Of a DNA stretch of 35,726 nt, positions 3,601 to 35,210 are shown piece by piece. A program made the translations under genes and the position numbers. This DNA is from a virus, in IMG/VR virus record IMGVR_UViG_3300047480_000615, positions 1 to 35,726 of that record; one strand, given 5' to 3'. A model generated the notes under the pieces. That model did no database searches. It saw only the letters and a program-made list of their open reading frames with translations, and was not told the DNA's origin. The stretch's first letter is position 1, and every line of letters starts with the position of its first letter.

Positions 3601-3609
3601 ATTATATCA
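3601..3609 (-). promoter_or_regulatory. Extended -10 promoter TGATATAAT, leaderless arrangement
   Basis: The minus strand reads TGATATAAT, then AATTGT, then the ATG at 3594. The last base of the -10 hexamer is seven bases from the A of the start codon, the usual distance to +1. The -35 region (GGCAGC at 17-bp spacing) has no consensus. The same nonamer recurs at other gene heads in the window. Confidence 0.7.
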
Positions 3610-3620
3610 ATGAAATTGCA

Positions 3621-4847
3621 CTAGCTGCCCTCAAAATCCTTATAAATAAAGCGACCTGAATCAAAATCAATATCTACCATAAATTCCCCTGAAAATCCGT
3701 GACGATTCTTTCTAAATGCACACTCTAAAATACTGCTTCCAGTTACACGACCTAATGCTAAAACCCAGTCAGCATCATATGCTAATTGCTTTGACCATGC
3801 TACTTGACCTAGTGATGGAACGCTATTCATATCAGTTGCATCATCTGGTGTAGCAGAAGCAATTGCAACCACTGGAACCTGTGAAGAAATAGCTAGTACT
3901 TTTAATTCACGAGATATATTTTTAATCTTAACTGTTTCATTATTACTTGTTCCAGAATTATCTTGCATTAATTGAATATAGTCAATAAATACTACATCTG
4001 GAGAATACTGATCAATTTTACCTCTAATAACTGATGGAGATACTTCTCCTAATCCATCATTAGAAACAATATAAAATGGTGGCTTATCTTTTAAGTGTTG
4101 CCTTGCCCAGTTATTAAAACCTTCAATATCAACCATACCTGCACTTAATTTTCTATGAGAAAAATATCCCTCAGCCATGATTGTGTATACACGATTTCTA
4201 ACTTCTTTTTCTGTCATTTCAAGAGAAATAACTAATGGTACTTTCCCTGACTTCCAAGCTTGTACAGCCATAAAGATAGCCAACCAAGACTTACCAATGG
4301 CAGGGTAAGCAAGAAGTATACCAAACTGACCAGGAGTAATACCAGCAGGTAGATAGTTATCAAAACCTGCGAGATTTGTCTTAACGCCTTGTACACCTTT
4401 ATCACTCAACTCCTTTACATGAACAAAATGTGCTGTTGCATCCTCAATATCTGTAGCATCAATATCTCTTACATCTGAACTAATTCTTTTTAAATCTGAT
4501 GTCTTTGCAATGATAGTATTTAATGCTTCTATTGGCTGATGATCATTTAATTGTTTTGCACCAACCATTAAAACATTTTTAAGGTTATCTTCAAGATATT
4601 GAGTTCTTAATTCTTCAAGGTGGTGCTTGGTACTTCCAATTTCTCCAACAGGATTAAAGTCTCTAAACTTTTCAATTAGCAACTCCTTTGTTGGAACTAT
4701 GGAATTATTTTCATAATATGTTCTTACAAAGTCCCAAACATCTTTATGGCTTCTAAATAATGAATCTGGATTTGCTTGAAACAAAACATGTATCTGCTTA
4801 TCATTTAATACTGCAGATATTACTTTTGCCTCTAAGTCAATACTCAT
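3621..4847 (-). CDS. DnaB-like replicative helicase
   Basis: 408 residues; RecA-fold hexameric helicase that unwinds the phage replication fork. The helical N-terminal domain (about 1-120) is followed by a linker and the ATPase core. The Walker A loop is AYPAIGKS (residues 180-187), with Ala in place of the first Gly. Walker B is VVFIDYIQLM with D289. Downstream are the helicase motif around NISRELKVLA and an Arg-rich C-terminal segment (FRKNRHG). The ATG overlaps the upstream stop codon as ATGA. The preceding 102-residue gene may be its loader. Assignment is firm from motif order and neighbours. Confidence 0.93.
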   Translation of the reverse strand: MSIDLEAKVISAVLNDKQIHVLFQANPDSLFRSHKDVWDFVRTYYENNSIVPTKELLIEKFRDFNPVGEIGSTKHHLEELRTQYLEDNLKNVLMVGAKQLNDHQPIEALNTIIAKTSDLKRISSDVRDIDATDIEDATAHFVHVKELSDKGVQGVKTNLAGFDNYLPAGITPGQFGILLAYPAIGKSWLAIFMAVQAWKSGKVPLVISLEMTEKEVRNRVYTIMAEGYFSHRKLSAGMVDIEGFNNWARQHLKDKPPFYIVSNDGLGEVSPSVIRGKIDQYSPDVVFIDYIQLMQDNSGTSNNETVKIKNISRELKVLAISSQVPVVAIASATPDDATDMNSVPSLGQVAWSKQLAYDADWVLALGRVTGSSILECAFRKNRHGFSGEFMVDIDFDSGRFIYKDFEGS

Positions 4848-5152
4848 CTATTCAACCATTCTTTCGCTTGTTCTCTTAGTAACTTTCTAGTGGCATCATC
4901 TTCTATTTTTGCCTTTCTAGAATCATACACCTTATCAGCATTATTTACAAACCACTTCCAAGATGGGGATGCAGATACCTGTACATAGTATTCAATTAAC
5001 TCATAGCACTCTTCAACACCATAAGACTCAATCAAAGCATCTGCAGCCCACTGCTGTGTATGGATATTTATATTTTCTTCTTTTAAGTTTTTTTGCTTGA
5101 CTAAGCTTTTGTATTTAGAAATAAGTGCAAACCTATATTTCTTTTCTACCAC
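4844..5152 (-). CDS. Small protein coupled to the helicase; possible helicase loader
   Basis: 102 residues, lysine-rich and predicted mostly helical, with a Trp/Tyr-rich centre (EYYVQVSASPSWKWF). No recognised family motif. It starts at GTG (5152) a few bases after the previous stop codon and ends in an ATGA overlap with the DnaB-like gene, so the two are translated together. Phage helicase loaders are often small basic helical proteins encoded next to the helicase, and this one has no ATPase motif, as in T4 gp59-type loaders. The loader role is inference from position and size only. Confidence 0.7.
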   Translation of the reverse strand: MVEKKYRFALISKYKSLVKQKNLKEENINIHTQQWAADALIESYGVEECYELIEYYVQVSASPSWKWFVNNADKVYDSRKAKIEDDATRKLLREQAKEWLNR

Positions 5153-5154
5153 AA

Positions 5155-5358
5155 TTAATCTTCTAATTCTTGCTTAGCTTCTTCTACCTTTTCAATGACT
5201 TTCTTTTCTACAAAGTCGTATACTCTGTTCACTGCTTCATCTACGCCTTCTTCTGCACGAACAAAGTCTGTTACACCAATATCAATTCGTAAACTTTGAA
5301 AGTTTCCTAAATTAAGAGTATAACCTAATGTTACTGACACGTCTGTCTTTTCTGACAC
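5155..5358 (-). CDS. Small acidic hypothetical protein
   Basis: 67 residues, function unknown. The first half is beta-like (VSVTLGYTLNLGNFQSLRID) and the second half is an acidic helix (VEKKVIEKVEEAKQELED). The start codon is GTG with a good AAGGAG ribosome site seven bases upstream. It lies between the HTH protein and the putative loader, three bases from the latter. The short N-terminal 'SEKTDVSV' resembles the start of the preceding gene's product (MSDKTDKE), perhaps by chance. Confidence 0.7.
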   Translation of the reverse strand: MSEKTDVSVTLGYTLNLGNFQSLRIDIGVTDFVRAEEGVDEAVNRVYDFVEKKVIEKVEEAKQELED

Positions 5359-5367
5359 TTTGGCTCC

Positions 5368-5883
5368 TTACCATGTGTTTTCTTGCCAAGTAGGAATAAA
5401 CCTACCATCCGATGTCTTCGTATAGAGCATTATAGCATCTCCCATCTTAGAACGCAAATCCTGTTCAGTTGGAACATTTAATGGTGTCACTTTTCCATCT
5501 GCCCTAGGTCTTCCAAAATGAATTCCTGTCATAATTTCTCTTATTTCAAAGATATGGTCTTCAGAATAATATGCTTTAATCTGCAAACCTCTCTTGCCTT
5601 CTATGTTATCAGGAATTGGTGGAGGAATCAAGCCAGACGCAATATATTTACCAAATTGTAATCTTGACCTATTTAATAGTTTTGCTGCATTTGCTACAGT
5701 ATATGCTCTTTTTCTAAACTTTTTAAAATCTGTATATAGCATTGTTTGCATTTTTCCTTGACTAGCATTATAAAATTCAACAATATTACTTGCCCTGTTT
5801 GAATGTACTAGTTTTACTAGATCATTATTAATAAAAAATAGCTTTTTTACAGGCTTTATTTCTTTATCAGTTTTATCTGACAT
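5368..5883 (-). CDS. HTH DNA-binding protein (MerR/excisionase-like)
   Basis: 171 residues. Around residues 58-90 the segment YTVANAAKLLNRSRLQFGKY followed by IASGLIPPPIP matches a winged helix-turn-helix of the MerR/excisionase class: a helix-turn-helix that selects a pathway of residues, then a Pro-rich wing. A lysine-rich N-terminus and a basic segment near 'FGRPRADGK' could also contact DNA. An AGAGG ribosome site precedes the ATG. It sits where virion genes give way to replication genes, so it may regulate that switch or the replication operon. The regulatory role is inference; the fold call is moderately sure. Confidence 0.7.
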   Translation of the reverse strand: MSDKTDKEIKPVKKLFFINNDLVKLVHSNRASNIVEFYNASQGKMQTMLYTDFKKFRKRAYTVANAAKLLNRSRLQFGKYIASGLIPPPIPDNIEGKRGLQIKAYYSEDHIFEIREIMTGIHFGRPRADGKVTPLNVPTEQDLRSKMGDAIMLYTKTSDGRFIPTWQENTW

Positions 5884-5893
5884 TTATGCCTCT

Positions 5894-6325
5894 TTACGGT
5901 CTTTCTCCAATAGCAATTATTGATACGTTGATTACTGGATCACCATTTACAGCAGCAGAATTAAAAAGCTTTACATCACAGCTATTGCTGTTTAGATTAG
6001 TAATTACAGCATATATTGGTGCAGCCTCTCCAGAAACTGTTTGAACTGATACCGTAACTATTGGTGTTGATGAAAAATTAAAGTTAAATCTAGTTGTAAG
6101 GTCTGACTGTGTTGAAAATTTTGGAGATAATGTATTTGCTGAAGCATAAAATGTTAAATTTGATGTCGCAGTCTCAACACTTCTTGGTGGATTAGTTGGA
6201 TAAGAAATCTTAGATCTATTTGCAGATTGAAGACTTACAATAGAGTTTATGTTATTAATTTCATTAGCCATTGTTAAGATATAAGAAATATCTAAAGGTT
6301 GACCTCTGTCTGGTAAAGTTGGCAT
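5894..6325 (-). CDS. Small tail-associated protein with beta-rich C-terminal domain
   Basis: 143 residues. The N-terminus (LDISYILTMANEINNINS) looks helical and could trimerise. The C-terminal part is a run of beta strands (FNFSSTPIVTVSVQ ... SCDVKLFNSA ... VINVSIIAIGERP), a pattern seen in H-type lectin-like receptor-binding domains of phage fibres. It closes the tail gene block. It has its own extended -10 element at 6341-6349 and an AGGAG ribosome site. A carbohydrate-binding or fibre-tip role is inference. Confidence 0.65.
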   Translation of the reverse strand: MPTLPDRGQPLDISYILTMANEINNINSIVSLQSANRSKISYPTNPPRSVETATSNLTFYASANTLSPKFSTQSDLTTRFNFNFSSTPIVTVSVQTVSGEAAPIYAVITNLNSNSCDVKLFNSAAVNGDPVINVSIIAIGERP

Positions 6326-6340
6326 TTTTTCTCCTATTAC

Positions 6341-6349
6341 ATTATATCA
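6341..6349 (-). promoter_or_regulatory. Extended -10 promoter TGATATAAT
   Basis: The minus strand reads TGATATAAT immediately after the stop codon of the 200-residue upstream gene. The predicted start near 6334 gives a leader of about nine bases that begins with the GGAG of the ribosome site. No -35 consensus is visible. Confidence 0.6.
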
Positions 6350-6952
6350 TCATGACTGCAGTGGCAAAACATAGGTCATTGTGCCACTAGATAATTCTAT
6401 ATTTATATCAAAAATAGCTAAGTGATCTTTTATCTCATTAATTTTAGAGTCTAATTCACTTCCAGATAAATCACTAAGACCATATGAAGAAATTAGTCCT
6501 ATAATTTCAACATTTGTTGGTCCATGAACGCTTGGTGCAACATTTGCAGTACTTTTTGCTATGGTTGTACTATCTGTTAAAACTCTATCATGATATTCAA
6601 AGTGACCTGAACTTGTTCCGTTATACCATCTTAAAAATATATCTGTCTGATGTTGTTTAAAATTTTGAGAATGATTGTGTGCAATTGATGCTGATACTAG
6701 GGATATATCATAGTTATATATAGTTGGAGTCTCCCACGTTATTGTAAATGACGATTGGCTTCCTCCAGACTCTAGGTTTTCTACAACTGCTGATCTCAAT
6801 GGTCTGTATTGACCAATACTTTTTATAGTATATAGTGGAGACCATGCAGAAACCCTGTTTCTATCTTCAGATACGATTCTAAATTGTAATGTATGATTTC
6901 CATTTATATCTGGTGGTGGAAGTTTTTCAACAGGAATCCTGATTTTTGACAT
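6350..6952 (-). CDS. Minor tail protein, fibronectin III-like
   Basis: 200 residues. The N-terminal half has the strand pattern of a fibronectin type III module (HTLQFRIVSEDRNRVSAWSP ... SFTITWETP), common in tail and fibre proteins of siphoviruses. The rest is a mixed alpha/beta region without a recognised motif. The ATG overlaps the upstream stop codon as TAATG. It follows the 372-residue tail protein directly and is probably part of the same tip or fibre complex. Precise role unknown. Confidence 0.65.
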   Translation of the reverse strand: MSKIRIPVEKLPPPDINGNHTLQFRIVSEDRNRVSAWSPLYTIKSIGQYRPLRSAVVENLESGGSQSSFTITWETPTIYNYDISLVSASIAHNHSQNFKQHQTDIFLRWYNGTSSGHFEYHDRVLTDSTTIAKSTANVAPSVHGPTNVEIIGLISSYGLSDLSGSELDSKINEIKDHLAIFDINIELSSGTMTYVLPLQS

Positions 6953-8881: not shown

Positions 8882-8882
8882 C

Positions 8883-20476: not shown

Positions 20477-21149
20477 TATTTAATCACCTCGTAATCTAGC
20501 CCCATTCCAATTCCAAAACCAGCCTGTTGTGCTGCTCTTCCTTGTAGGGCAAGAATATCATTTGGGTTAGAAGTCTTTCCACCACTAAAAGCTCTAGCCT
20601 TTATTTCTTCCCACTTCTGCATAGATGCACCATCTTTAGAGCTATCTATGTCAACTCCTTGTAAAGAAGCTAGAAATTTCTTATCTTCAAAATCTTCTTC
20701 GCTCTTCTGTTCTAGAATTGCTAGAAGTTCTGGCATTGATAAGCTATCCTCCAGTTCTTGATAGTTCTTCCAGAAGCCCAGAAGAAATACTTTTGTTTCT
20801 ATCTTGGCGAGATCTAGTTCGTTCCAGCTAGAGCCGCCGCTAGTACGTTTGGGTCATTCAGCTTTATCCCTGCTGCTATTTCTATAACCTTATAAATAGT
20901 TGGTAGATCAATAACCTCTTCTAGCTTTTCTTTTTCTGCAAGTTCAGGCTTATACTGCTTCATTGCAATAACTGCACAATCAAGAAGTAAGTCCATTGAC
21001 TTGATATTATCTTCTGCAATTTTTTGATCTGAGATTTTTTCAAATTCTTTCATGAATTCTCTCAATAATGCGATCTTTAAAGGCTTCATTGTAATGCTTG
21101 AGCCATCTAATAATTCAACGTCTACGATTTCGTATACGGTAGTTGCCAT
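20476..21149 (-). CDS. Tail assembly chaperone GT fusion, made by -1 frameshifting
   Basis: Predicted 224-residue product. Translation begins at 21149, shares 101 residues with protein G, slips at CCCAAAC (20847-20853) and continues in the -1 frame for 123 residues to the stop codon at 20476. The -1 frame stays open across the whole overlap and encodes a plausible T domain (RTSGGSSWNELDLAK ... GFWKNYQELE ... MPELLAILEQKSEEDF). In lambda-like phages G and GT bind the tape measure and recruit tail tube subunits. The position immediately before the tape measure, which it overlaps, fits. An ORF starting at ATG 20736 is only the end of this T segment, not a separate gene. Confidence 0.9.
20814..21149 (-). 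CDS. Tail assembly chaperone G
   Basis: 111 residues; the unshifted product. It acts with the GT fusion to hold the tape measure before tail tube polymerisation. The protein is acidic and alpha/beta (MATTVYEIVDVELLDGSSIT ... LLREFMKEFEKISDQ), as in other phage G proteins. A strong AGGAGGA ribosome site precedes the ATG, and an extended -10 element lies at 21175-21183. The stop codon TAG comes 33 bases after the slippery heptamer. Most ribosomes should stop here, giving an excess of G over GT. Confidence 0.9.
   Translation of the reverse strand: MATTVYEIVDVELLDGSSITMKPLKIALLREFMKEFEKISDQKIAEDNIKSMDLLLDCAVIAMKQYKPELAEKEKLEEVIDLPTIYKVIEIAAGIKLNDPNVLAAALAGTN
20847..20853 (-). promoter_or_regulatory. 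-1 programmed frameshift site CCCAAAC
   Basis: In frame 0 the codons are GAC CCA AAC GTA, so the heptamer C CCA AAC fits the X XXY YYZ rule and re-pairs as CCC AAA in the -1 frame. The -1 frame has a stop codon (TGA) immediately upstream and is open downstream to 20476. Location between major tail protein and tape measure is the classic place for this event. Confidence 0.9.
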
Positions 21150-21174: not shown

Positions 21175-21183
21175 ATTATATCA
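21175..21183 (-). promoter_or_regulatory. Extended -10 promoter TGATATAAT for the chaperone-tape measure unit
   Basis: The minus strand reads TGATATAAT a few bases after the terminator of the major tail gene. Predicted +1 near 21168 gives a leader of about 19 bases carrying AGGAGGA. This restarts transcription for the chaperone, tape measure and tail-tip genes. Confidence 0.7.
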
Positions 21184-21193: not shown

Positions 21194-21227
21194 AAAAAAC
21201 AATACCCACCCCTTTTGAGGGTGGGTA
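21194..21227 (-). terminator. Rho-independent terminator after the major tail gene
   Basis: A perfect 9-bp stem (TACCCACCC at 21203-21211 with GGGTGGGTA at 21219-21227) and a 7-base loop are followed, in the minus direction, by a six-T run (21199-21194). It lies 23 bases after the tail tube stop codon. Confidence 0.88.
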
Positions 21228-21249
21228 CTGAACTATATTTAATTATAGA

Positions 21250-21921: not shown

Positions 21922-21977
21922 ATTTGATTTTCACCTCTTTTTGGTCAAAAAATTTATGGATGGCGTTTCCTAAGATA

Positions 21978-21983
21978 ATTATA
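21978..21983 (-). promoter_or_regulatory. Possible -10 element TATAAT for the major tail gene
   Basis: The minus strand reads GATATATAATTATC in the only sizeable non-coding stretch upstream of the tail tube gene. It has a full TATAAT hexamer but no TGN extension and no convincing -35. The leader would be about 50 bases. Confidence 0.4.
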
Positions 21984-21997
21984 TATCTAGTTTTTCA

Positions 21998-22180
21998 CTA
22001 ATCTTCATTAAATTGCTTAAAATGATAATCATATCTAATAATTAGGTCTCTTTTTGGCTCATATTCCATGAAATTATCAACATCCATTTGGGTATCAGTA
22101 AAGCCAGACTGATACACGTTAAAGCAATGAAAGTAATATTTATACATATTATCAGATTCTAGGTATCCTGGTAAAGTTTT
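21998..22180 (-). other. -1 frame continuation of the tail terminator gene, or a separate 49-residue gene
   Basis: 60 codons remain open in the -1 frame past the tail terminator stop. The product (KTLPGYLESDNMYKYYFHCF ... RDLIIRYDYHFKQFNED) alternates like the closing beta strands of a tail terminator fold and follows naturally from the upstream LIHRILDRK. An AAAA run at 22177-22180 allows a simple AAA-to-AAA slip or a one-base deletion; the joined protein would have 181 residues. Alternatively an ATG at 22147 gives a 49-residue protein, but no good ribosome site precedes it. Confidence 0.55.
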
Positions 22181-23695: not shown

Positions 23696-24571
23696 TTATA
23701 ACACCCCAACACGGATGTCATTCTTATACTTAGTTAAAATTCTGTCAACAATCATGTTGCCAGTTGATGCATTAAAATTCTTTGCAAACTTAATTTTAAA
23801 GTCTTCATTATCAAAAGATTCAATATATTTATTTAAATATTTCATATTTCCAGAAGATAGATCAGAGCATAAAAGTTCTGCAGCTTCTTGAATATCTTGT
23901 GGAATTACTCTATATCCATAATCAGCATCAATAATATAGTCATATCCATCAGCAAATGTTCTTCCTAGATATCTATCTCTCCATACTTCAGGATACTCTG
24001 TTTTATTTTGCTGACTTTCAACTGGCACAACGGATGTTTTATCCTTACTAATAGCAAAGGTTACTTCATTATTATTTGATTCTGAGTCATATAATAGGAC
24101 ACCATTTTCATATACTTTATAAAGCTTATTAATCTTTTCATTAATTACTAGGAAATCTGATCCATTTCCTACTACTTCCTTTTCTTTTCTAACAAATCCA
24201 AATCCCTGAGAAACTTCAGAGTCAATAATATAACGAGCAGTTCTTTCCATATCCTTAACTGCAGAAAGTGATTTATTTAAAGACGTTGATAATCCTGATA
24301 AGTCTGATATATATGGTCTTACTACATCAATATTTGTAGTAACAACTTCTTCATCTAGATAGTTTGTTACAATAGCATCCAAAATTCCATCATATTTTGC
24401 ATATCTATCATCTAGTGTAAATGTAACTTGTCCAGATGTTGCAGCAGTTGCCTCATCTGAAAATTCAAGTTCACTTACTAAGTCTGTATAAGAGAGAGTA
24501 TATACTGCTGAAGGAACTAGTCCTGAAAAAGATACTGTTGGAGCCTGTCCATTAATTCTTAAAACTTCCAT
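23696..24571 (-). CDS. Head-tail adaptor with an N-terminal beta domain
   Basis: 291 residues. The N-terminal 90 residues form a beta module (NGQAPTVSFSGLVPSAVYTL) resembling an immunoglobulin or fibronectin-like fold. The remainder is largely helical (IPQDIQEAAELLCSDLSSGN), like adaptor proteins that bind the portal ring. It is longer than typical adaptors (about 110-150 residues) because of the extra domain. ATG overlaps the preceding stop codon as TAATG. Adaptor role inferred from order and from the helical C-terminal half. Confidence 0.58.
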   Translation of the reverse strand: MEVLRINGQAPTVSFSGLVPSAVYTLSYTDLVSELEFSDEATAATSGQVTFTLDDRYAKYDGILDAIVTNYLDEEVVTTNIDVVRPYISDLSGLSTSLNKSLSAVKDMERTARYIIDSEVSQGFGFVRKEKEVVGNGSDFLVINEKINKLYKVYENGVLLYDSESNNNEVTFAISKDKTSVVPVESQQNKTEYPEVWRDRYLGRTFADGYDYIIDADYGYRVIPQDIQEAAELLCSDLSSGNMKYLNKYIESFDNEDFKIKFAKNFNASTGNMIVDRILTKYKNDIRVGVL

Positions 24572-24762
24572 TATTTAGAGCCGAAAACTTCAGCTACCTC
24601 CTCTGGAGATGCAATTCTTAATCTTGGAAATTTTTCAATCCAAAAGTTTGCATCTTTCTTGGATACTATATTATATCCCCTTGTTAGCTTTCCAAGTTCT
24701 TTGTCGTTAACACTTGCATTCTCAACAAATAAAGCAACAAGATCTTGTTTTTTAGTATTCAT
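24571..24762 (-). CDS. Small protein at the head of the connector operon
   Basis: 63 residues of unknown function. It ends in SPEEVAEVFGSK and has a KRK-poor, helical composition with a WIEKFPRLR segment. It starts ten bases after the -10 element at 24772-24780, so its leader would be only about three bases and there is no ribosome site. The stop codon overlaps the adaptor ATG. It may be a small head-binding protein, but nothing in the sequence identifies it. Confidence 0.6.
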   Translation of the reverse strand: MNTKKQDLVALFVENASVNDKELGKLTRGYNIVSKKDANFWIEKFPRLRIASPEEVAEVFGSK

Positions 24763-24771: not shown

Positions 24772-24780
24772 ATTATATCA
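24772..24780 (-). promoter_or_regulatory. Extended -10 promoter TGATATAAT for the connector operon
   Basis: The minus strand reads TGATATAAT, nine bases, then the ATG at 24762. The element lies between the HNH gene and the connectors, so it restores transcription downstream of the inserted HNH unit. Confidence 0.65.
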
Positions 24781-24797: not shown

Positions 24798-25139
24798 TTA
24801 TAAGATTTTCCAATCTTTATTTTGCTTTGTTTTAAGCCTATGACAGTTGGCACATAGAGTTTGTAGGTTAGATTCATCATTATTTTTTCTATTTCCATCA
24901 ATATGATCTACATCAAGTTGGCATAAATCTTCTGGCACAAAACCACAAATACTACAAGTTTTTGAAAAAAAAAAACTATATGGTCTATTACGTCTTGTTT
25001 TAATTAAAAAAGCGGCTCTACTACAACGCCACTTATCAAATCCGTTTTTTGTTTTTCCCTTATATTGTATGCTTGTAGGTCCACAAACTGAACATAATGC
25101 ATCTCTATTTAATGAGTTTATTTCTGTTAGTTTATGCAT
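24798..25139 (-). CDS. HNH endonuclease, free-standing (putative homing type)
   Basis: 113 residues. The C-terminal half is a classic HNH nuclease: DVDHIDGNRKNN with catalytic H79, then N91 and the C96/C99/H100 cluster (LCANCH), with C62 and C65 completing a zinc site. The N-terminal half has C16, C19 and C39, perhaps a second zinc-binding DNA-contact module. The basic N-terminus fits DNA binding. It sits between the capsid and connector genes, where such genes are often inserted, with its own leaderless promoter and no ribosome site. It could be a homing endonuclease, or a packaging-associated HNH protein, though those normally sit beside the terminase. Confidence 0.88.
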   Translation of the reverse strand: MHKLTEINSLNRDALCSVCGPTSIQYKGKTKNGFDKWRCSRAAFLIKTRRNRPYSFFFSKTCSICGFVPEDLCQLDVDHIDGNRKNNDESNLQTLCANCHRLKTKQNKDWKIL

Positions 25140-25145
25140 ATTATA

Positions 25146-25154
25146 AGTATAGCA
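25146..25154 (-). promoter_or_regulatory. Extended -10 promoter TGCTATACT, leaderless HNH gene
   Basis: The minus strand reads TGCTATACT, six bases (TATAAT), then the ATG at 25139. The distance places +1 at the A of the ATG. The element abuts the base of the hairpin at 25155. Confidence 0.6.
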
Positions 25155-25184
25155 TAGGGGGTATGCTTTTACACATACCCCCTA
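25155..25184 (-). terminator. Strong hairpin after the capsid gene
   Basis: A perfect 11-bp stem (TAGGGGGTATG at 25155-25165 with CATACCCCCTA at 25174-25184) and an 8-base loop lie 19 bases after the capsid stop codon. No U-tract follows; instead the HNH promoter begins at the next base. It could terminate weakly, stabilise capsid mRNA, or both. Confidence 0.65.
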
Positions 25185-26228: not shown

Positions 26229-27599
26229 TTAATGATATAGGTCAGCGGAATTGAGGAAACGTCCACCCCACATAGACCCTTTTTTGATTTGTGTTCCCTG
26301 AACGACACCGCCAAGGTCGCCAGACTTGCGGACAGCGGTTTCGTCTTCTAGACCATCTACACGCTTTCCAAACTCTTCAAGATTACCTTTTACTGCTGTA
26401 ACTTCCTCTGTTACTGTAGTAACGCCCTTTTTAAGGTCTGCAATCTCTGCATTTAGTGATTTAATTGTTGAAACAAGTTCACTCACTGCCTCTGTTACTG
26501 AAACCTTGATTTCGTCAACAGCCTTTACAAGCTCAGAATCAACTGATTCAGTAGCAACAGACTGTTCAACTGCTTCTTCAGAAGCAGCCTCTGCAGGAGC
26601 TTCTTCAGGATCAGCGGACTTTTCAACTGTTTCTTCAACAGCGTCAACTGCATCAACTGATTTTTCTACGGTTTCTTCGGCAGGAGCTTCTTCAGCAGCT
26701 GGAGCTTCAACTTCAGCAGCTACTTCTTCAACAGTGTCTTCTGTAACTTCTACATTTTCTTCTGACACGTTGTTCTCCTCCTTTATATTGTTTTCCACAA
26801 TTGACTCTTGATTGTCAATCGCTGTATTTTCAGATGATAAATCTGAATTCTCTGATTTTGATAGGCTATCTACGCCAATAAACTTATTTAACAGACCTTT
26901 AATAGTCATAGCTTTTTCCGAATCCTTTGTTTCTACGAATCCAATATTTTCCATAGTGGAATCGCATGAAGGGCAGCTTGTGCTGTCATCTGAAGCTAGT
27001 CTGATCAAATCATCAGTCTTGCACCAATAGACATTTTCAAGGTCTGCTTTTGTAATTATACCAGTAATTTCATTATGCCCATTTACTTTTTGAATAGACA
27101 CGATATTTGCAAATTGATTTGCAGGATTATCTACTAATGATAATTCATGAAGTTCATATTCTTTTACAAGACGAACATTTTTATCCATGCTCTTATTGTA
27201 CATATCTTCAGACTCTTTGATTACTCCACCGATTGAAAAACCCGAAAGAGTGCCGTCAAGAACTTTTTCCCAAGTGTCTTGAGCACCTTTGGAAATGTAA
27301 GCATCAACGTAAACACCGTTATAAAAACTGTCAGAACTTTTATCAAAGAACTTCTCCTGTCTGAAATTTACCATTCTACCAACAGCAACTGGTTGGTGCA
27401 TTTCACGAATATTTCCTTTAAATTGTTCAAAAGCTTTTACACTTACCTCAGAAGGAACAATGTCAGATTGCTTGTCTACGTTATCCAACGTTGCAAACCC
27501 AGAAACGATTCTTCGTTCCTTATCTACCTTGGCGATTGGCATTGATAAAGATACGTTGTCTTTATCTGATGACCAATAAGCCTTATTTAAAGGTGTCAT
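26229..27599 (-). CDS. Capsid maturation protease fused to scaffold, with zinc-ribbon insert
   Basis: 456 residues. The N-terminal 165 residues match the XkdF/HK97-type prohead protease: REMHQPVAVG with likely catalytic H68, LSGFSIGG with S122, and ELSLVDNPAN. A short Cys-rich insert follows (C193, C209, C212). Next comes a Glu/Ala-rich low-complexity stretch (about 265-350) with repeated EETVEKS, and then a coiled coil (EIKVSVTEAVSELVSTIKSL) of scaffold type. Protease-scaffold fusions are known in phages; cleavage would release the scaffold during maturation. It has a promoter-like element and an AGGA ribosome site, and lies just before the capsid gene. Confidence 0.88.
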   Translation of the reverse strand: MTPLNKAYWSSDKDNVSLSMPIAKVDKERRIVSGFATLDNVDKQSDIVPSEVSVKAFEQFKGNIREMHQPVAVGRMVNFRQEKFFDKSSDSFYNGVYVDAYISKGAQDTWEKVLDGTLSGFSIGGVIKESEDMYNKSMDKNVRLVKEYELHELSLVDNPANQFANIVSIQKVNGHNEITGIITKADLENVYWCKTDDLIRLASDDSTSCPSCDSTMENIGFVETKDSEKAMTIKGLLNKFIGVDSLSKSENSDLSSENTAIDNQESIVENNIKEENNVSEENVEVTEDTVEEVAAEVEAPAAEEAPAEETVEKSVDAVDAVEETVEKSADPEEAPAEAASEEAVEQSVATESVDSELVKAVDEIKVSVTEAVSELVSTIKSLNAEIADLKKGVTTVTEEVTAVKGNLEEFGKRVDGLEDETAVRKSGDLGGVVQGTQIKKGSMWGGRFLNSADLYH

Positions 27600-27629: not shown

Positions 27630-27638
27630 ATTTTATCA
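27630..27638 (-). promoter_or_regulatory. Extended -10 promoter TGATAAAAT for protease-capsid
   Basis: The minus strand reads TGATAAAAT 30 bases before the protease ATG, leaving a leader of about 24 bases with AGGA. A second TATAAT at 27610-27615 lies too close to the start codon to serve a ribosome-bound leader. Confidence 0.55.
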
Positions 27639-27648: not shown

Positions 27649-29202
27649 TTAACCTTGTACCCTGCCTTCTCCACCAGGATTTCTTCCTGTTGGAGTTGAG
27701 GCAGAGTCTGTTGCGTTATTAGTTCTTTCCTGATCTCTTCTTCTTGTTCCTGCTGTTTGTGCGTTTTGTTCTGCTCTTTGTTGAGGGGTCATAGCGACTT
27801 TTTCATCGCCGTCTGGCATTAAAGGTAAGCCAAGTCTTGGTCTGATATCGTTTGGAGTAATAACCTGCCCCCTTAAATATCTTTCATCAATCTGACTCTG
27901 TGTATTTTCATCAGTCAGAGTAAGTTCATTAAATTTAAATTTTAGAATATCTGTCTGTTCTTTAATAATCTTATTAATTGTCTTTTCTAAGTTTTTCTGT
28001 GCTGGTCTAGCAACCTGTTCTTTAAACGTTCTATCAGATGCTAGAGCGGCTGCAATTGACATTCCTTGACCAGATCCAACCTTTGAAATTGGAACCTGAT
28101 GTGCCATTAAAATATCATTTGTATTTGATTCACGATATTTTGTAAAAGATCCTTCTTGAATACCATTTTCAACTGGCTCCATCTTAAATTCAACTTTATT
28201 GTCTGGAGTATCTCCAGGAAGTGGAATAAATAATGTTCTGTGATTTTGTCCACGAAGACCTGATTGTAAAAATCTAAATAACTTATCTTCTGAATCTGCA
28301 GAAAGCTTTGCACCTTTTAGCCAGACTACATATCTTGGAACTGCCTTATTTTCAAAATAATCAATATTATATTTTGCAGCAAGTTGATCTCCAACCATTG
28401 ATGTTGCAGCAGATACTGAATCTGGAACACCATAGTATGTATTCTTTGGACTGTACTTTTTAATATGAATCAATTCATTTGGTCTTGTATCAGTTGTTAC
28501 TGGATTTACTGTTTTTGTATCTTGAAAGTTTTTAAAGAATACTGCCCTTTGATTTACAATTTGAACATATCCATCACGAAGTCTTCGTACACGAATTGTG
28601 GTTGCTGGAATATGACCAATATATCCAATCTCTCCATTAATCTTTCTTCCAATTTCAATGTAACCATTTCCAGTAGCTTCATAATCTGTAAATGCTTTTT
28701 CAATTACATGAGTAAATGTATCTTCATCATTTAGTCCCTCAAGCCATTCAGATAGTTCTGTCTTTAATCTTTCTACCTTTCTTTGGGCACGAGCTCTTGA
28801 ATCTGTATCTTCCATCTCTTCGATTCTTTGCTTTACTGAGTCTGACATAATAAAGTTATATCCAAGACCTACAGTATTTGCTACCTTAGAATTTACTGCA
28901 GCATGGTTTGCAAACGAATTATCATAAAAGAATGCAAGTTCATCTAGATTGTATGGTGGCAGAACTACATCAAAAAGACCATACGCTGTAGTAATATCTT
29001 TTTCTGGAAAAAGCTGTTTTGAGCCAGTATTATCCTGCCCCATATAGGCTTTATTCATTCTTGAAATTCTACGCTTAAAGTTAGCATCTAGTCCATCAAA
29101 TGATTTTACTAACTCTAATTCTGCGGAAAATGGGTCATATTTTTCAACAGACTTTGCATTATCCGTTCTATCAATTTTTGCTATTACTTTATCTTCAGTC
29201 AT
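27649..29202 (-). CDS. Portal protein, PBSX/XkdE-like
   Basis: 517 residues; dodecameric DNA gate at the head vertex. Segments typical of this portal family are present: a clip/stem region TGNGYIEIGR and IPATTIRVRRL, LIHIKKYSP, YYGVPDSVSAA, KAVPRYVVWLKG, and MAHQVPISKVG before the C-terminal helix. The C-terminus is low in complexity (RRDQERTNNATDSASTPTGR). It overlaps the upstream gene by eight bases. No terminase gene lies in the window, although it normally precedes the portal; it must be beyond the right edge or displaced. Confidence 0.92.
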   Translation of the reverse strand: MTEDKVIAKIDRTDNAKSVEKYDPFSAELELVKSFDGLDANFKRRISRMNKAYMGQDNTGSKQLFPEKDITTAYGLFDVVLPPYNLDELAFFYDNSFANHAAVNSKVANTVGLGYNFIMSDSVKQRIEEMEDTDSRARAQRKVERLKTELSEWLEGLNDEDTFTHVIEKAFTDYEATGNGYIEIGRKINGEIGYIGHIPATTIRVRRLRDGYVQIVNQRAVFFKNFQDTKTVNPVTTDTRPNELIHIKKYSPKNTYYGVPDSVSAATSMVGDQLAAKYNIDYFENKAVPRYVVWLKGAKLSADSEDKLFRFLQSGLRGQNHRTLFIPLPGDTPDNKVEFKMEPVENGIQEGSFTKYRESNTNDILMAHQVPISKVGSGQGMSIAAALASDRTFKEQVARPAQKNLEKTINKIIKEQTDILKFKFNELTLTDENTQSQIDERYLRGQVITPNDIRPRLGLPLMPDGDEKVAMTPQQRAEQNAQTAGTRRRDQERTNNATDSASTPTGRNPGGEGRVQG

Positions 29203-29566
29203 CGCCGTGAGCCTTTAGTCCTTTTGCTGCATCTATCCATGCACCTGTATCAAATTCAGATGCTATTAATCCATTTTTCATTCTATCTACTTGAACAGAA
29301 TGCTCTTCATCAGAAATTCTTGTTACACCAGCCATAAATTGAGCCTTTCCTGGACCTGCACCATAATGTGCTGCTGCCTGTGTAATTCTATTGATTGCCT
29401 GAATATCATATTTTCTGGCAGGAATATTCATAAAATTTCCTTCTCCATCACCAAAAATTTTACCATTTTCCATTTTCCATACATATAAGCCATATTCTGC
29501 ATTATTTTCTACTACTCTTACTTTTGGCTTATTTGGCAATTTATTTAACATATTTTCATAATCCAT
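29195..29566 (-). CDS. Small protein upstream of the portal, probably leaderless
   Basis: 123 residues from the ATG at 29566 (MDYENMLNKLPNKP). An ORF start at 29584 is less likely: its first codons are the promoter element itself (ATG TGG TAT AAT), without a ribosome site. The chosen ATG lies exactly six bases after TATAAT. The protein is alpha/beta with a central AAAHYGAGPGKAQFMAG motif and an acidic C-terminus (DAAKGLKAHGDD). No family recognised. It overlaps the portal start by eight bases, suggesting a packaging or head role, which is inference. Confidence 0.7.
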   Translation of the reverse strand: MDYENMLNKLPNKPKVRVVENNAEYGLYVWKMENGKIFGDGEGNFMNIPARKYDIQAINRITQAAAHYGAGPGKAQFMAGVTRISDEEHSVQVDRMKNGLIASEFDTGAWIDAAKGLKAHGDD

Positions 29567-29572
29567 GACATG

Positions 29573-29581
29573 ATTATACCA
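29573..29581 (-). promoter_or_regulatory. Extended -10 promoter TGGTATAAT, leaderless arrangement
   Basis: The minus strand reads TGGTATAAT, CATGTC, then ATG at 29566. It begins three bases after the stop codon region of the LamG-like gene. No -35 consensus (GAGTAT at 17 bp). Confidence 0.65.
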
Positions 29582-29583
29582 CA

Positions 29584-32500
29584 TTAAATAGGTTTATACT
29601 CAAAAGTGGTCCAGTCAGCGTCATTTAATACCTTAACACTATCAAAATCTACACTAAGTATGCTATTATCGTCACCAATAACATATGAAAGACCAAGATA
29701 TGTATCAAATATATTTTTACCATCAATTGATAAAACTGTTACTGGAATTAACTCTTGATTTAGTGCACCTAACCAAGTTACTGATCCAGACAATGCTCCC
29801 CACGAACCATCTCCAAATTCTAGTGCATCAAGCCAAGCATCAGTTATGGTCAAGCTTAGTCTAATTTCATTGATGTCAGAAAATGCTGAAACATTGTTTA
29901 CTCTAATTCCAGGATATATTTCTAACTGACCAGATACTCCTTCAGCCACTCCAGATATTTCTCTATAAAAGTTTATACTTTCATCTTGTAGGGATATTAC
30001 AATAGAATTCCATTTAAATGGCTTTATTTTTACGGCAGTAACTTCTTTTCCATTTAAAAAGAACTTTACCCCTTCAATATCTTGGTTTGTTACAGAGTCT
30101 ACTAATCTTATCTTGGCTCTTCTTTGATCTAATTCTGGAGTTAAATAAATTAAATACTCATCAAAAATATTTGATATTTTACCTATTAACTTTTCTTCAG
30201 CAAAATAGTCAGCTTCATTAAACATTAAGTACATCTGCAATCCAACCATTCTAAAGTCAGCCTTTAGAGTTTCATTTATTGTAAAAGATAGCCCATTGTC
30301 AGTAGTAGAGCCATCCCATGGAAGTACAGATATCCCACTATTTCCAGAGATATATAAATATGAATTTGTCTCATGATTAATAACTACTGGATTTTTTGCC
30401 TTATATTGATACTCGTTGCCTATCCTTGATATTGGATTTATAGTTCTGCCAGTTGGTGATCCTATTTTAAATAGACTTACTTCATCAAAAGCTAGTGATG
30501 AGAATGACATTTTTTTAATAACCATATTTTCAGTATTTATACCTTTTGAAGATATTAATATATGAGTGGTAATGTAATAGTCATTAAAGTCAACTCCATC
30601 TTTTGGAGGAAATATTATTGTTGAGTCAGATACATCAAACTTTGTAGTATTTAAATTACTTTCATTATCAAAATCTATTACCCTGTCATTTCCTATATGA
30701 ACCGTATTGATATAGTCAGTGAAAGGAATCATTCCAACATTTTCTTTATTTTGTAAAGTAATGTATGATCTTGCTGACATATTTTCATGATACAGCGTTG
30801 AGTCTTCATTTTCTTTTGAATATAGTGTATATGGAATATCTATATTAAATTGAACTAAATCTAAGTCATAGTACCTTGATCCATCTTCTAAATTAATATA
30901 CTTTCCAAAATACGTTAATGGCACTGAAGACTCCCAATATCCAGTAGCAGCTACATCTAAATAGGTAGTTACATTACTTAGTTGTGGAATAAGAGTATAT
31001 GTACCAATATAATGAAAAAGTCCATCTGCATTTATTGCAAAACCATTTGAGTCAAAATATTCTGGATTTTTTTCTAAAAAGAATTTATTGTTTAATGTTA
31101 AAGATAATATTTTTCCACTAAAAGTTGCACCATTTATACCAGCAAAATTTAAAGAAGTGTTGTCAAGATTTGATAGCACTTGACTAGTTTGTGGATAGTC
31201 CTCAATTATTTTATCTATATTAATTCCTACTGGAATAAATGACTCTTCTTCTAATTCTTGTGCAAACAATAATTCATTATTATAAATATACTGTAAACTT
31301 CCAGATTGTATTTTTGCCTCAAAGTAGTTAGTGGTGGTACTATTTGATAGATATAAAACTGATTGATATGTGTCTATGTCATTTGATGTCTTTATAACAG
31401 AATAGATTGATTTTGTTGGATACCCAGTTTTATTTACTTTTGAAAAATAAATTGTTGAATCAATTTCTGAATATCCTGAATTTGGCTTCATCTTAATAAA
31501 AGGATATTCTTCATCTTGAATACTAAAGTTATCATAATCAAATGTTGACCAAATTTCTTCAGCAGCTGACTGACTTAAACTTGCTGAATTATTTGTAAAT
31601 ATGATATCTGGTAAATCTAGGTCTGGTAAAGATAGTCCTTCAGAAGTAACCTTTAAGTTATTTGAATAGCCATTTGTCCAAGGTGTTCTATCTGGATAAG
31701 ATATTGTTGAATTATAGTTTGAATATGGGAAGTCTACATAAGTTAAATCTCCACCAAGTGACACAACAATGCTTTCTTGATTTTCTACACCTTGACCATA
31801 AACAAATCTTCTTTTTGCTACTTGTTCAGTAATTATATATGGGAATATTGACAAAACATCAATTTCAAATGGCTGAGTTTTATGATGTCCAAAAAATCCT
31901 AAATAATCTTCCTGTGACGAAGGAAATGTTGAAATATTTAAAGATTCAATTGGAATTGATATTACCTTTTCTCCATTTATCATTAAATATATTTCAGAAA
32001 GTGTCTGTCCAAAATGTACTAACATTGGTCTATACCATTGACCAACAAAATAAGATTTTTTATACTGACCAACCTTAATAACTATAAATTCTGAATCTAT
32101 ATATATGCCATCATCTGACGCTACTGGACCAAATATTTTTAATTCTTCTGAAGACTCATTATTTATTCTCATCCAAAATTCAGCAGTTATATTTGAATAT
32201 ATGCCAGACTGATTTAAAAATCCTTTTCCTGGAAATATTAAAGATGGAACATAGGCTTCTTCTTCTAAATAAGAATAAAGACCTCCATCAACTGATGCTG
32301 AAAATATAGCACTTGGACTTCCTCCATCAATTTCATCTTCAAACAAACTTGTTGAATATAGTCCACCATCTGTTTGATTATCAAATATTACTGACAGTTC
32401 TTTGCTTAAAATAGATACTGTATTTTTTGAACCATATACCATTGGTATACCAGCTGTTTCTGCTAGTAACACATTATTGTACTGTAATAAATATCCAGTA

Positions 32501-33201
32501 TCAGTATTATCAAATCCATACGGATCAATTGGAACACACTTTACTACTCCACCATTTATATTAATTGCATCATAAATATTTGATGGCAAACTTTCTACCT
32601 GAGACCCAGTATCAAATGAATTAAATGGTTCTGACCATTGACCTATAGATAGTCCAGAAATAATTACTGCGGTATCTCCGTCACCAGAACCAGCAAATGC
32701 ATCATACTCAAATCTTATAAGTGCTTGTATATTGTCCTCACTGTCAAGATCTTTTGTGTACTCTATTTTATTCCATCTATCTTTATTAAATGAAGTTATA
32801 GTGTCATAGTACTCTTGACCATTTATTAAAAATCCTATTTGTATTTCTGAGATAAGGGTTTCTTCTGGAATATAAAAATAGGCATTTATACATATGCTGC
32901 CTTTTAGTTTATCAACCTTATCCTCATATGATATTGAAGGAGATAGTGCTTCTGCATATGAAGATGAAGAAGATTGTCTGTATACCTTGCTTACTAAAGA
33001 ATCTTCTATAGGATTACCTGATGGAATACTTACTGATCCAGAAACAGACATGTTGTCAAATTCCCAGTCTTCTGAGGATATTTCTTTTGCTGACTCAGAA
33101 ATTAAAGATACAAAGTTTATATTTTCATCAATTGCCCACAAAGCCAGTGGGTGTTCAGCAAATACTCTAGAAGCGTAAAGATTTGAACTTTTATAAGACA
33201 T
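29584..33201 (-). CDS. Large LamG/concanavalin-like virion protein
   Basis: 1205 residues, almost entirely beta-rich. A LamG-like module lies about residues 320-470 (SNITAEFWMRINNESSEELK ... YFVGQWYRPMLVHFG ... IYLMINGEKVISI ... GFFGHHKTQPFEIDVLSIFP). Similar strand patterns recur later (YLSNSTTTNYFEAKIQSGSL; WNSIVISLQDESINFYREI), so at least two more jelly-roll modules are likely. A DGGLYS motif occurs twice near 280-310. The fold is typical of glycan-binding tail or head fibres. It is unusual that it lies upstream of the portal rather than with the tail tip genes. No signal peptide, enzymatic motif or collagen repeat seen. Confidence 0.75.
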   Translation of the reverse strand: MSYKSSNLYASRVFAEHPLALWAIDENINFVSLISESAKEISSEDWEFDNMSVSGSVSIPSGNPIEDSLVSKVYRQSSSSSYAEALSPSISYEDKVDKLKGSICINAYFYIPEETLISEIQIGFLINGQEYYDTITSFNKDRWNKIEYTKDLDSEDNIQALIRFEYDAFAGSGDGDTAVIISGLSIGQWSEPFNSFDTGSQVESLPSNIYDAININGGVVKCVPIDPYGFDNTDTGYLLQYNNVLLAETAGIPMVYGSKNTVSILSKELSVIFDNQTDGGLYSTSLFEDEIDGGSPSAIFSASVDGGLYSYLEEEAYVPSLIFPGKGFLNQSGIYSNITAEFWMRINNESSEELKIFGPVASDDGIYIDSEFIVIKVGQYKKSYFVGQWYRPMLVHFGQTLSEIYLMINGEKVISIPIESLNISTFPSSQEDYLGFFGHHKTQPFEIDVLSIFPYIITEQVAKRRFVYGQGVENQESIVVSLGGDLTYVDFPYSNYNSTISYPDRTPWTNGYSNNLKVTSEGLSLPDLDLPDIIFTNNSASLSQSAAEEIWSTFDYDNFSIQDEEYPFIKMKPNSGYSEIDSTIYFSKVNKTGYPTKSIYSVIKTSNDIDTYQSVLYLSNSTTTNYFEAKIQSGSLQYIYNNELLFAQELEEESFIPVGINIDKIIEDYPQTSQVLSNLDNTSLNFAGINGATFSGKILSLTLNNKFFLEKNPEYFDSNGFAINADGLFHYIGTYTLIPQLSNVTTYLDVAATGYWESSVPLTYFGKYINLEDGSRYYDLDLVQFNIDIPYTLYSKENEDSTLYHENMSARSYITLQNKENVGMIPFTDYINTVHIGNDRVIDFDNESNLNTTKFDVSDSTIIFPPKDGVDFNDYYITTHILISSKGINTENMVIKKMSFSSLAFDEVSLFKIGSPTGRTINPISRIGNEYQYKAKNPVVINHETNSYLYISGNSGISVLPWDGSTTDNGLSFTINETLKADFRMVGLQMYLMFNEADYFAEEKLIGKISNIFDEYLIYLTPELDQRRAKIRLVDSVTNQDIEGVKFFLNGKEVTAVKIKPFKWNSIVISLQDESINFYREISGVAEGVSGQLEIYPGIRVNNVSAFSDINEIRLSLTITDAWLDALEFGDGSWGALSGSVTWLGALNQELIPVTVLSIDGKNIFDTYLGLSYVIGDDNSILSVDFDSVKVLNDADWTTFEYKPI

Positions 33202-33211
33202 GAGGTACCTC
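33202..33211. promoter_or_regulatory. 10-bp palindrome GAGGTACCTC forming the leader of the LamG-like gene
   Basis: The sequence lies directly before the ATG at 33201 and contains the GAGG ribosome site. Counting seven bases from the -10 element puts +1 at 33211, so the predicted leader is exactly this palindrome. It may serve as an operator or fold to hide the ribosome site. Confidence 0.4.
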
Positions 33212-33217
33212 TAGACT

Positions 33218-33226
33218 ATTTTATCA
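33218..33226 (-). promoter_or_regulatory. Extended -10 promoter TGATAAAAT for the LamG-like gene
   Basis: The minus strand reads TTTGTGATAAAATAG between the reductase gene's stop codon and the LamG-like start. The 11-mer TGATAAAATAG also occurs in plus orientation at 35202-35212, before the rightward gene. Confidence 0.6.
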
Positions 33227-33235
33227 CAAACAGCC

Positions 33236-35179
33236 CTAGTTACCTGCGATATCTACAATCTCACAATATCCAGCAACACAAGAAAGCTCTTGACTTCCAG
33301 TTGTTCCATCTGTTGTTTCATATAAAGAAAGCATGTCCCAACGAATTGTGTCAGGCATTCTCTTTAGATAATCTTCATACTCTTCTTTTGTAATTTCTTG
33401 ATATGGAGCTTGTTTATATGAATGCTCTACTGCTGGTAAGAAAGATACTCCACCAATAGAATCAAAATTATCGTATACCCATGCACCAACACCCATCCAT
33501 TCATGTTCGTGAACATTTACTGTTACTGAAGGATTATGCTCTGTCCAATTTGTTCTATATGTTTTCCACATTTCAAGATGATCAATAGCAGTAAGATCTT
33601 TTGTTAGAACTGCATTCTTTGGAGCCTTGATTGGGAAATAAAATACAGTAGTAGCTTCTGGCTTCATAACATCTGGCTCAAATGGGACTCCAGAGTCTTT
33701 TAGGAACTGTGTTAAAGGATCTTTATTATCTGCCCTAACACTTCTAATGTAGTATTCTGAGTACCATGGGTGTATGCCAGAAGATACTCCAGTAAGCTGA
33801 GAAACGGTCCCTGACGGCTTTACACAGGTAATTGATACTGAGGGATTAATATTTAAATTCTTTGCCTCATTTTTATTTGTTAAAACTGATAGATCTCTCA
33901 TATCATTTAATAAATCTACTAGACTATCGTTGTTTGTAGCAGTTAATTTATTTCCGTAAATACCTGTCAAAGATACTCCAAGAAGTCTTTCTTCTTCACA
34001 GTTATCTTTCCATGATTTTCTGATGTATTTAAAGTTTGTAAGAGTTGATTGCCATGTACCCAAAATTGTAGCAAGTCTTACTTTTTCAAGAAGATCTTCT
34101 CTACTATCAGATGCTTCAATTACAACCTCTGTAAGATTACAAAATTCATTTGGACGAAGTAAAATTTCTCCACAAGGGTTTGTACCTGCAACTAATGAAG
34201 AATCTCTACGACCAAATTTATCAATATGCTTACGAACGCTATCCATATTAAAAATACCACGTTCACCAGATTTTGATTCGTATAGGTTACGCCATTCACG
34301 AAGGAACTGTGCAGTATTTGGTTTTGTATTATAAACAGCAGAGTTATTTGCTAATGCTCTTTGACCATTACCTTCCCACCACTGACCACTCTTTGCCTTT
34401 GCCATTTCAAAGTCATCAAGATTTGACAAAGAAATAAGAGCACTTCTTCTTACTCCACCAACAACAACAACTTCTCCAATTTTACACATAATATCGTGTG
34501 CCTCAATTGGCTTTAATCTTCTTCCTGCAGCCATTTTAAATGTCTCAATTGTAAATTTAAATAAGTCATTTAATGGATCTGGACCTGATGCACGACCACC
34601 AAAGGTTTTTAGTCTTGCTCCAGCAGGGCGAACTTTTGACATGTCCCAGTTTGGAATTTGACCTTGATAAAGCAAGGCAATTAATTCTTTATATGCCTTA
34701 GCCCAACCAAGCTTTGAATCATCAACAACAATTGTTGTATCTGTTGGATGAAATTCTTCTGCAATTGCTGGAAGTGCGTTTGTATATTTTTGCTCAACAC
34801 TAAATCCAACACCTGTTCCATTCATAAGAATATACATTGCCTCATCAAAAGCACGAGGGCTATCAACAGCAATAAATGAACAGTTATATGCTGCAATATG
34901 ATCACGTTCTAGTGCTGGACCTGCAGTCATTAATGCTCTCATTGAAGGCATAATTTTATGATTTAAGATAGCTTCTTTTACTTCGTTGAATATTTTTGCA
35001 TTTGGACTATAACCATAGTTTAGTACCAAATGATCTTTCATGAAGTTAGTATATCTGTCAACAGTTTCCTGCCAAGTTTCTCTACGATTTTCACTTTCAA
35101 TCCAACGAGCATATCTTGAAATATGAATAAAATTACGGTAAGGATCTGTAATAGATCCATTTGAGTCAATAAATGACAT
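33236..35179 (-). CDS. Class II (B12-dependent) ribonucleotide reductase
   Basis: 647 residues from the ATG at 35179 (MSFIDSNGSITDPYRNF); a GTG at 35191 adds four residues but lies only one base from AAAGGG. Converts ribonucleotides to deoxyribonucleotides using adenosylcobalamin. Visible motifs: YNCSF with the first redox Cys, GTGVGFS, NPCGE with the thiyl-radical Cys (C336 here) and catalytic Glu, EFCNL with the partner Cys, and PSGTVSQLTGVSSGIHP. The C-terminal pair SCVAGYC supplies reducing equivalents. No separate small subunit gene is present, as expected for the monomeric class II type. The length is slightly below the 739 residues of the Lactobacillus enzyme. It boosts dNTP supply during infection. 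No cobalamin riboswitch fits in the short leader. Confidence 0.92.
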   Translation of the reverse strand: MSFIDSNGSITDPYRNFIHISRYARWIESENRRETWQETVDRYTNFMKDHLVLNYGYSPNAKIFNEVKEAILNHKIMPSMRALMTAGPALERDHIAAYNCSFIAVDSPRAFDEAMYILMNGTGVGFSVEQKYTNALPAIAEEFHPTDTTIVVDDSKLGWAKAYKELIALLYQGQIPNWDMSKVRPAGARLKTFGGRASGPDPLNDLFKFTIETFKMAAGRRLKPIEAHDIMCKIGEVVVVGGVRRSALISLSNLDDFEMAKAKSGQWWEGNGQRALANNSAVYNTKPNTAQFLREWRNLYESKSGERGIFNMDSVRKHIDKFGRRDSSLVAGTNPCGEILLRPNEFCNLTEVVIEASDSREDLLEKVRLATILGTWQSTLTNFKYIRKSWKDNCEEERLLGVSLTGIYGNKLTATNNDSLVDLLNDMRDLSVLTNKNEAKNLNINPSVSITCVKPSGTVSQLTGVSSGIHPWYSEYYIRSVRADNKDPLTQFLKDSGVPFEPDVMKPEATTVFYFPIKAPKNAVLTKDLTAIDHLEMWKTYRTNWTEHNPSVTVNVHEHEWMGVGAWVYDNFDSIGGVSFLPAVEHSYKQAPYQEITKEEYEDYLKRMPDTIRWDMLSLYETTDGTTGSQELSCVAGYCEIVDIAGN

Positions 35180-35201
35180 TTTGTGATGCACACCCTTTAT
35201 C

Positions 35202-35210
35202 TGATAAAAT
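35202..35210 (+). promoter_or_regulatory. Extended -10 promoter TGATAAAAT, rightward
   Basis: The plus strand reads TCTGATAAAATAG in the divergent gap, with TTGTGA at 35181-35186 as a possible -35 at 18-bp spacing. The downstream leader carries AGAAGG before the ATG at 35251. Confidence 0.55.

Follow-up and report, generated by a model that had tools for sequence, protein, structure and literature searches.

Which RNA polymerase reads the short TGNTAWAAT boxes that recur ahead of genes in the viral record IMGVR_UViG_3300047480_000615, and does it do so without a -35 element? The whole stretch analysed here, hereafter the window, is a 35.7-kb tailed-phage fragment (35,726 nucleotides (nt), 34% guanine-plus-cytosine (GC) content) whose genes are almost all on the minus strand. 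An earlier note, made from the letters alone, had listed nine such boxes, named below by their first coordinate, as extended -10 promoters at most transcription-unit heads. All nine coordinates and strands were correct; eight boxes are exact TGNTAWAAT words and the one at 25146 reads TGCTATACT. Each directly precedes a gene, provided that at 29573 the start ATG 29566, which is kept in relatives, is used. The description of their placement was fair as well: gaps devoid of the element lie before the genes for major capsid protein (MCP), portal, tape measure protein (TMP) and DNA polymerase, all operon-internal, and also before that for ribonucleotide reductase (RNR). We consider it very probable that the sites are promoters of a known kind, namely extended -10 promoters for the host primary sigma factor, in an actinophage related to Stanwilliamsviridae.

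The gaps of this 34% GC window are AT-rich and might yield TATAAT-like words through composition, or the motif might belong to a translation-initiation signal; neither version is credible any longer. Across both strands of the whole window, TGNTAWAAT occurs 18 times, whereas shuffled sequences contain 9.9 on average and reach at least 18 in 1 of 100 cases. With gaps defined by corrected gene starts, the sense strand of the ~1.0-1.4 kb of noncoding DNA holds eight matches against 0.39 expected, a count attained in none of 5000 first-order Markov resamples; genes hold five sense matches (4.9 expected) and five antisense. Comparing intergenic with intragenic frequency was the check set beforehand, and the motif passed it: the excess is confined to noncoding DNA, and genes are at chance. 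The count was extended to 18 related contigs, which with the window amount to 1.0 Mb and 1006 gene starts. There the 49.5 kb of noncoding DNA carries TGNTATAAT 112 times on the sense strand and 12 times on the antisense strand, and 856 kb of gene interior carries it 24 times in sense orientation, a density ratio of ~80-fold between noncoding sense and gene interior. The word ranks first among 280 permutations of its letters in noncoding DNA (112 versus 13 for the runner-up) and below the median within genes, and the same word occurs in Streptomyces phages of 48-53% GC. Chance and AT-richness are ruled out by Markov resampling, letter permutations and the orthologue conservation described below, and a translation-initiation signal by a distance to the ATG that varies from 6 to >45 nt.

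Conservation was scored at dereplicated orthologous junctions, for which a shuffled control gave ~2-3%. Four sites are conserved at 96-100%: 21175 (32/32 junctions), 6341 (31/32), 29573 (37/38, spaced by 6 or 7 wherever scoring was possible) and 33218 (22/23). The region of 27630 carries an extended -10 in 31 of 47 junctions at a variable position, 3601 in 9 of 15 (60%; spacing 6 at six loci and 7 at three), 35202 in 8 of 17 and 24772 in 8 of 21. For 25146, an orthologue of its HNH gene was absent among the relatives examined. Within-operon control junctions (MCP, portal, polymerase, TMP, 20476 and 8883) contained the motif in 0-5% of cases; the higher values at the major tail (9%), helicase and RNR (22%) and single-stranded DNA-binding protein (SSB; 77%) genes come from controls that are not clean negatives and may have promoters of their own. 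At the SSB site (2410), 24 of 30 dereplicated orthologues have an extended -10, and all 24 have a -35 matching at least 5/6, although this -35 lies within the 3' end of the primase gene, where coding constraint may raise its conservation. In Jay2Jay and StarPlatinum, TGATATAAT stands 23-24 nt before the chaperone gene orthologous to that of 21175, in stretches of ~48% GC. The promoter set is conserved group-wide across environmental actinobacterial phages, where it would be used as a standard switch.

Alignment of 150 sites gave the logo T-R-TG-N-TATAAT, with T at -17 in 61% and A/G at -16 in 73% of sites, followed by the fixed TG and hexamer, and no column near -35 above 0.1 bit; TG and hexamer were the search input, and the independent results are the flanking preference and the missing -35. 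TGN immediately precedes the TATAAT-like hexamer, on the sense strand upstream of genes and not inside them. The earlier statement that -35 regions lack consensus is largely borne out: at spacings of 15-19 nt, the best TTGACA match reaches 2-3/6 at six of the nine sites and 4/6 at 29573 and 35202; 6341 reaches 5/6, but with a 15-nt spacer. Overall, TTGACA matches of at least 5/6 accompany 8.9% of TG sites and 14.6% of non-TG sites against 2% by chance, a class difference that is not significant (p = 0.10).

The two regions of these genomes differ. In the virion block of the window and the 18 relatives (set A), -35-bearing sites are at chance level (1/69 TG and 1/66 non-TG; expected 1.4 and 1.1), so that the -35 appears absent or dispensable there. 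Outside it, 9/93 TG and 20/126 non-TG sites bear a -35 (expected 2.3 and 2.5), about six times chance. After dereplication, TG-only and -35-bearing promoters stand at 68:2 in the virion block versus 84:29 elsewhere (Fisher p = 3e-5); this value is optimistic, because sites dereplicated at 65% identity still come from related phages, and some of the -35-only matches sit in conserved coding sequence ahead of the primase gene, where coding coincidence is possible. Nine further contigs (set B) again showed -35 elements above chance outside the virion block (13 seen versus ~3.1 expected), and with just 4 TG and 10 non-TG new virion sites after dereplication the virion side of the contrast was not repeatable in them. 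The observation of the earlier note was therefore correct and its reading largely so: an extended -10 without need for a -35 is the standard promoter of the virion block, but it is not specific to virion genes. In relatives of 60-100 kb the sites run along the whole genome, replication and small-gene regions included, which rules out a virion-only motif.

The best reading of the phage itself is an actinophage related to Stanwilliamsviridae. The nearest deposited phages for MCP (about 40%), portal (53%) and RNR (63%) are Streptomyces phages of this family, and homologous structural and replication genes are syntenic with theirs, as judged on the 35.7-kb fragment; many nearer relatives are low-GC environmental contigs. 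The gene whiB, a marker of actinobacteria and actinophages (PMC10202952), is present in 7/7 related contigs >70 kb and was not seen in the window. Searching genome contigs for the RNR as a lead to the host returned only a Patescibacteria metagenome-assembled genome (50%) and a Clostridiales fragment, so the host assignment rests on whiB and relatedness.

In the mechanism that we propose, the host primary (SigA/sigma70-type) RNA polymerase holoenzyme would recognise the extended -10, with the consensus T-R-T-G-N-T-A-T-A-A-T, and its contact with TG would substitute for the -35 contact. The virion (late) block would use this promoter type essentially alone, and genes elsewhere would use it together with promoters bearing a TTGACA-like -35. 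Classical and extended -10 promoters occur in the same genomes, as one primary sigma factor would predict. RNR orthologues illustrate the classical type, with TTGAC-17-TAGAAT/TACAAT lacking TGN (-35 of at least 5/6 in 57%, shuffled 4%), and SSB orthologues combine TTGAC with TGC-TACAAT. The TTGACA enrichment of non-TG sites is the pattern of one sigma factor with interchangeable elements.

A phage-encoded sigma factor or polymerase could instead read the boxes, as T4 gp55 acts on TATAAATA without a -35, which would make these late promoters of a separate enzyme. Such a factor would account for a virion block devoid of -35 elements, and the freshwater Planktophila phages E7 and F5, also actinophages, encode a sigma-70 factor (PMC10202952). 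However, the motif also drives non-virion genes, and its hexamer is the sigma70/SigA consensus, found in the same genomes with TTGACA and without TG. A Pfam search of 33 related contigs, seven of them 73-102 kb, returned no Sigma70_r2 match and a single sub-threshold Sigma70_r4 match (L144, G018:7310-7408, in a distant relative; E-value 2.7e-5), although it would miss very divergent sigma factors or polymerases. The suggestion of a phage factor, taken as a sigma factor, thus found no candidate above Pfam's cut-off, and we regard it as very improbable. Since the 33 contigs lack a clear sigma factor and whiB marks actinophages, host SigA is the likely reader. Several points weigh against this assignment: the weak Sigma70_r4 match, the blind spot of the Pfam search and the E7 and F5 factors just mentioned; a mild -35 excess at the 29573 and 33218 virion junctions if spacers of 15-19 nt are allowed; and the fact that the window is a fragment. 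From the sequence evidence we infer the RNA start sites, the use of host SigA and the late timing.

The regional contrast would also follow if a phage WhiB-like factor acted on region 4 of host SigA in the manner of T4 AsiA, disabling -35 use late while extended -10 promoters stay active. A sigma-modifying phage factor is conceivable because every related contig above 70 kb has whiB. The products carry the G-V/I-W-G-G segment typical of Wbl proteins, and Wbl proteins bind SigA region 4. The scarcity of -35 elements in the virion block fits this scheme; yet TG-only promoters are frequent outside the block as well, constitutive strong promoters would give the same picture, set B is too small for the contrast, and the window lacks whiB, with the timing itself only predicted. 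Such a factor is unlikely, if less so than a phage sigma factor. The same low probability applies to its extension, in which a -35-dependent class (RNR, SSB and others) would be set against the extended -10 virion class and WhiB would switch the polymerase to the latter and off host promoters. As a proposal, an AsiA-like late switch by WhiB is fair but unproven. WhiB-like proteins of 93-96 amino acids (aa; L308, L141, L142, L143 and L309) occur in relatives and are probably core to this phage group.

Under control by host SigA, RNA would start ~7 nt after the -10 box, and the distance to the start codon separates two classes of promoter. Among 192 dereplicated TG sites the start codon lies 5-9 nt downstream at 50 (six with a Shine-Dalgarno (SD) sequence, 44 without), 10-13 nt at 7 and at least 14 nt at 131 (109 with SD), a bimodal distribution with a putatively leaderless mode at 6-9 nt lacking SD, an SD-led mode at ≥14 nt and few sites between. 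Because of the expected RNA start, the 5-9 nt class would be leaderless or have a leader of ≤3 nt; the class at ≥14 nt has room for an SD, and the nearly empty 10-13 nt zone is where neither mode would work. At roughly one quarter to one third of the promoters, the start codon would thus coincide with +1 or lie no more than 3 nt from it, giving leaderless mRNAs without SD; most of the remainder would have a leader of at least 8 nt carrying an SD. In the window, 3601, 25146 and 29573 (6 nt) and 24772 (9 nt, the start codon 3 nt off the predicted +1) have the -10 box 6-9 nt before a start codon without SD, and 6341, 21175, 27630, 33218 and 35202 have SD-like leaders. Orthologues of 6341 include both SD-led (15 nt) and short-leadered (8-9 nt) forms of the same gene. 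RNA would therefore often begin at the start codon itself, and we infer leaderless translation at these genes. The mechanically called reading frame at 29573 begins at ATG 29584, upstream of the site, and ATG 29566 is the better start.

Table 1. Promoters and other features of the window (tail gene names assigned by synteny with Streptomyces phages; ORF, open reading frame)
Feature	Coordinates	Strand	Remarks
Extended -10 TGATATAAT	3601..3609	-	Before ORF 3283-3594; predicted RNA start 3594, the A of ATG; putatively leaderless
Extended -10 TGATATAAT	6341..6349	-	Before ORF 5894-6325, tail region; short SD-led leader (GGAG)
Extended -10 TGATATAAT	21175..21183	-	Before ORF 20814-21149, tail assembly chaperone by synteny; SD AGGAGG
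Extended -10 TGATATAAT	24772..24780	-	Before ORF 24571-24762; ATG 9 nt downstream; no SD
Extended -10 TGCTATACT	25146..25154	-	Before HNH endonuclease ORF 24798-25139; predicted RNA start at A of ATG; putatively leaderless
Extended -10 TGATAAAAT	27630..27638	-	Before head protease gene 26229-27599
Extended -10 TGGTATAAT	29573..29581	-	Before ORF 29195-29566; ATG 29566 exactly at predicted +1; putatively leaderless
Extended -10 TGATAAAAT	33218..33226	-	Before large ORF 29584-33201; SD GAGG
Extended -10 TGATAAAAT	35202..35210	+	Before ORF 35251-35487; SD-led
Tenth site TGCTACAAT, overlooked in the earlier note	2410..2418	-	Before SSB 1709-2359; TTGACG -35, 18-nt spacer
Conventional RNR promoter TTGACC-17-TAGAAT, no TGN	35222..35250	-	Contrasting promoter class
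Intrinsic-terminator-like hairpin with T-run	21200..21230	-	After major tail protein gene, directly upstream of 21175 promoter; -22.4 kcal/mol
Strong hairpin (AGGGGGTATG...CATACCCCCT), no T-run	25156..25183	-	After MCP gene; -23.4 kcal/mol, second small stem included
Window gene set		mostly -	DNA polymerase III alpha, SSB, primase, DnaB helicase, tail genes, tape measure (2183 aa)
Window gene set, continued		mostly -	Chaperone, major tail, HNH, major capsid, head protease, portal, ribonucleotide reductase

The promoters plausibly split the virion block into many separate units. Only those at 21175 and 25146 follow a strong hairpin, and a T-run is present only at the former (Table 1). The HNH ORF of the region 24798-25183, with its own hairpin and a leaderless-type promoter, has no orthologue in the relatives examined, where a hairpin sits directly before the promoter of the 24571 gene; it looks like a mobile insertion in a terminator/promoter gap. 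The plus-strand site 35202-35210 overlaps the minus-strand RNR promoter (-35 at 35250-35245, -10 at 35227-35222), and several relatives keep both. Because the two overlap and their predicted starts lie ~2 bp apart, they could hardly be occupied together, which makes a mutual-exclusion switch possible.

Further features concern promoter-like words or coding gaps. ORF 3283-3594 contains a perfect TTGACA-17-TATAAT on the minus strand at 3424-3452, which lies upstream of where the primase gene starts. Because similar words occur in this conserved stretch of coding sequence in the relatives L083 and L101, it may have arisen by coding coincidence or may serve as a primase promoter embedded in the ORF. 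The 237-nt leader of the major tail protein (21922-22158) contains TATAAT without TGN, followed by a conserved TTAGGAAACGCC stretch, and relatives vary there between TATAAT, TGNTATAAT and TGNTATACT. The two small ORFs that precede the tape measure gene are separated by a 77-nt gap (20737-20813), where tail assembly chaperone genes usually have a programmed frameshift. The 1205-aa large ORF has no Pfam match.

Taken together, these data map, at the level of sequence, the promoters and predicted start sites of an abundant, mostly uncultured actinophage group. Group-wide conservation, the leaderless/SD split, the tenth site and a -35 use that differs between regions are additions to what had been noted before. 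Several start codons were corrected, as leaderless genes are misplaced by SD-based gene callers, and the occurrence of -35-bearing promoters outside the virion block, against -35-less ones within it, raises the question of whether a phage WhiB redirects SigA polymerase by blocking -35 use.

Among known systems, T4 likewise places virion genes under -35-less promoters; its late promoters are read by gp55, and AsiA provides the switch. The T4 consensus is TATAAATA, in contrast to TATAAT with TGN here, and none of the 33 contigs contained a sigma domain above Pfam's cut-off of the kind that a gp55-type system would use. Closer parallels come from actinobacteria. Promoters of Mycobacterium tuberculosis have a -10 without -35 consensus, TGN marks their strongest class, and many transcripts are leaderless; TGN is found in only 7% of TANNNT promoters, with a loose hexamer (PMC3898074), whereas in the present phages the strict TGNTATAAT is the most enriched noncoding word. 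The leaderless "TA-led" genes of Actinobacteria (>20% of genes) similarly lack an SD and have a -10 box ~12 bp ahead of the start codon (PMC3160421), but here the phage is of low GC and the full TGNTATAAT replaces TANNNT.

Among the papers searched, none dealt with Stanwilliamsviridae promoters. The Streptomyces phages of this family (Jay2Jay, StarPlatinum and Muntaha) share gene order and homologous MCP, portal, RNR and TMP with the window and carry extended -10 elements before chaperone and holin genes; they differ in GC content (48-53% versus 34%), and their proteins are 40-63% identical. In extended -10 promoters of the sigma70/SigA type, TGN precedes the -10, and Gram-positive bacteria have a TRTG "-16 region". 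The sites described here agree in TGN-TATAAT, the T at -17, the purine at -16, a dispensable -35 and the more frequent TTGACA at non-TG sites. The element itself is identical; what is unusual here is its role as nearly the sole promoter type of the virion block.

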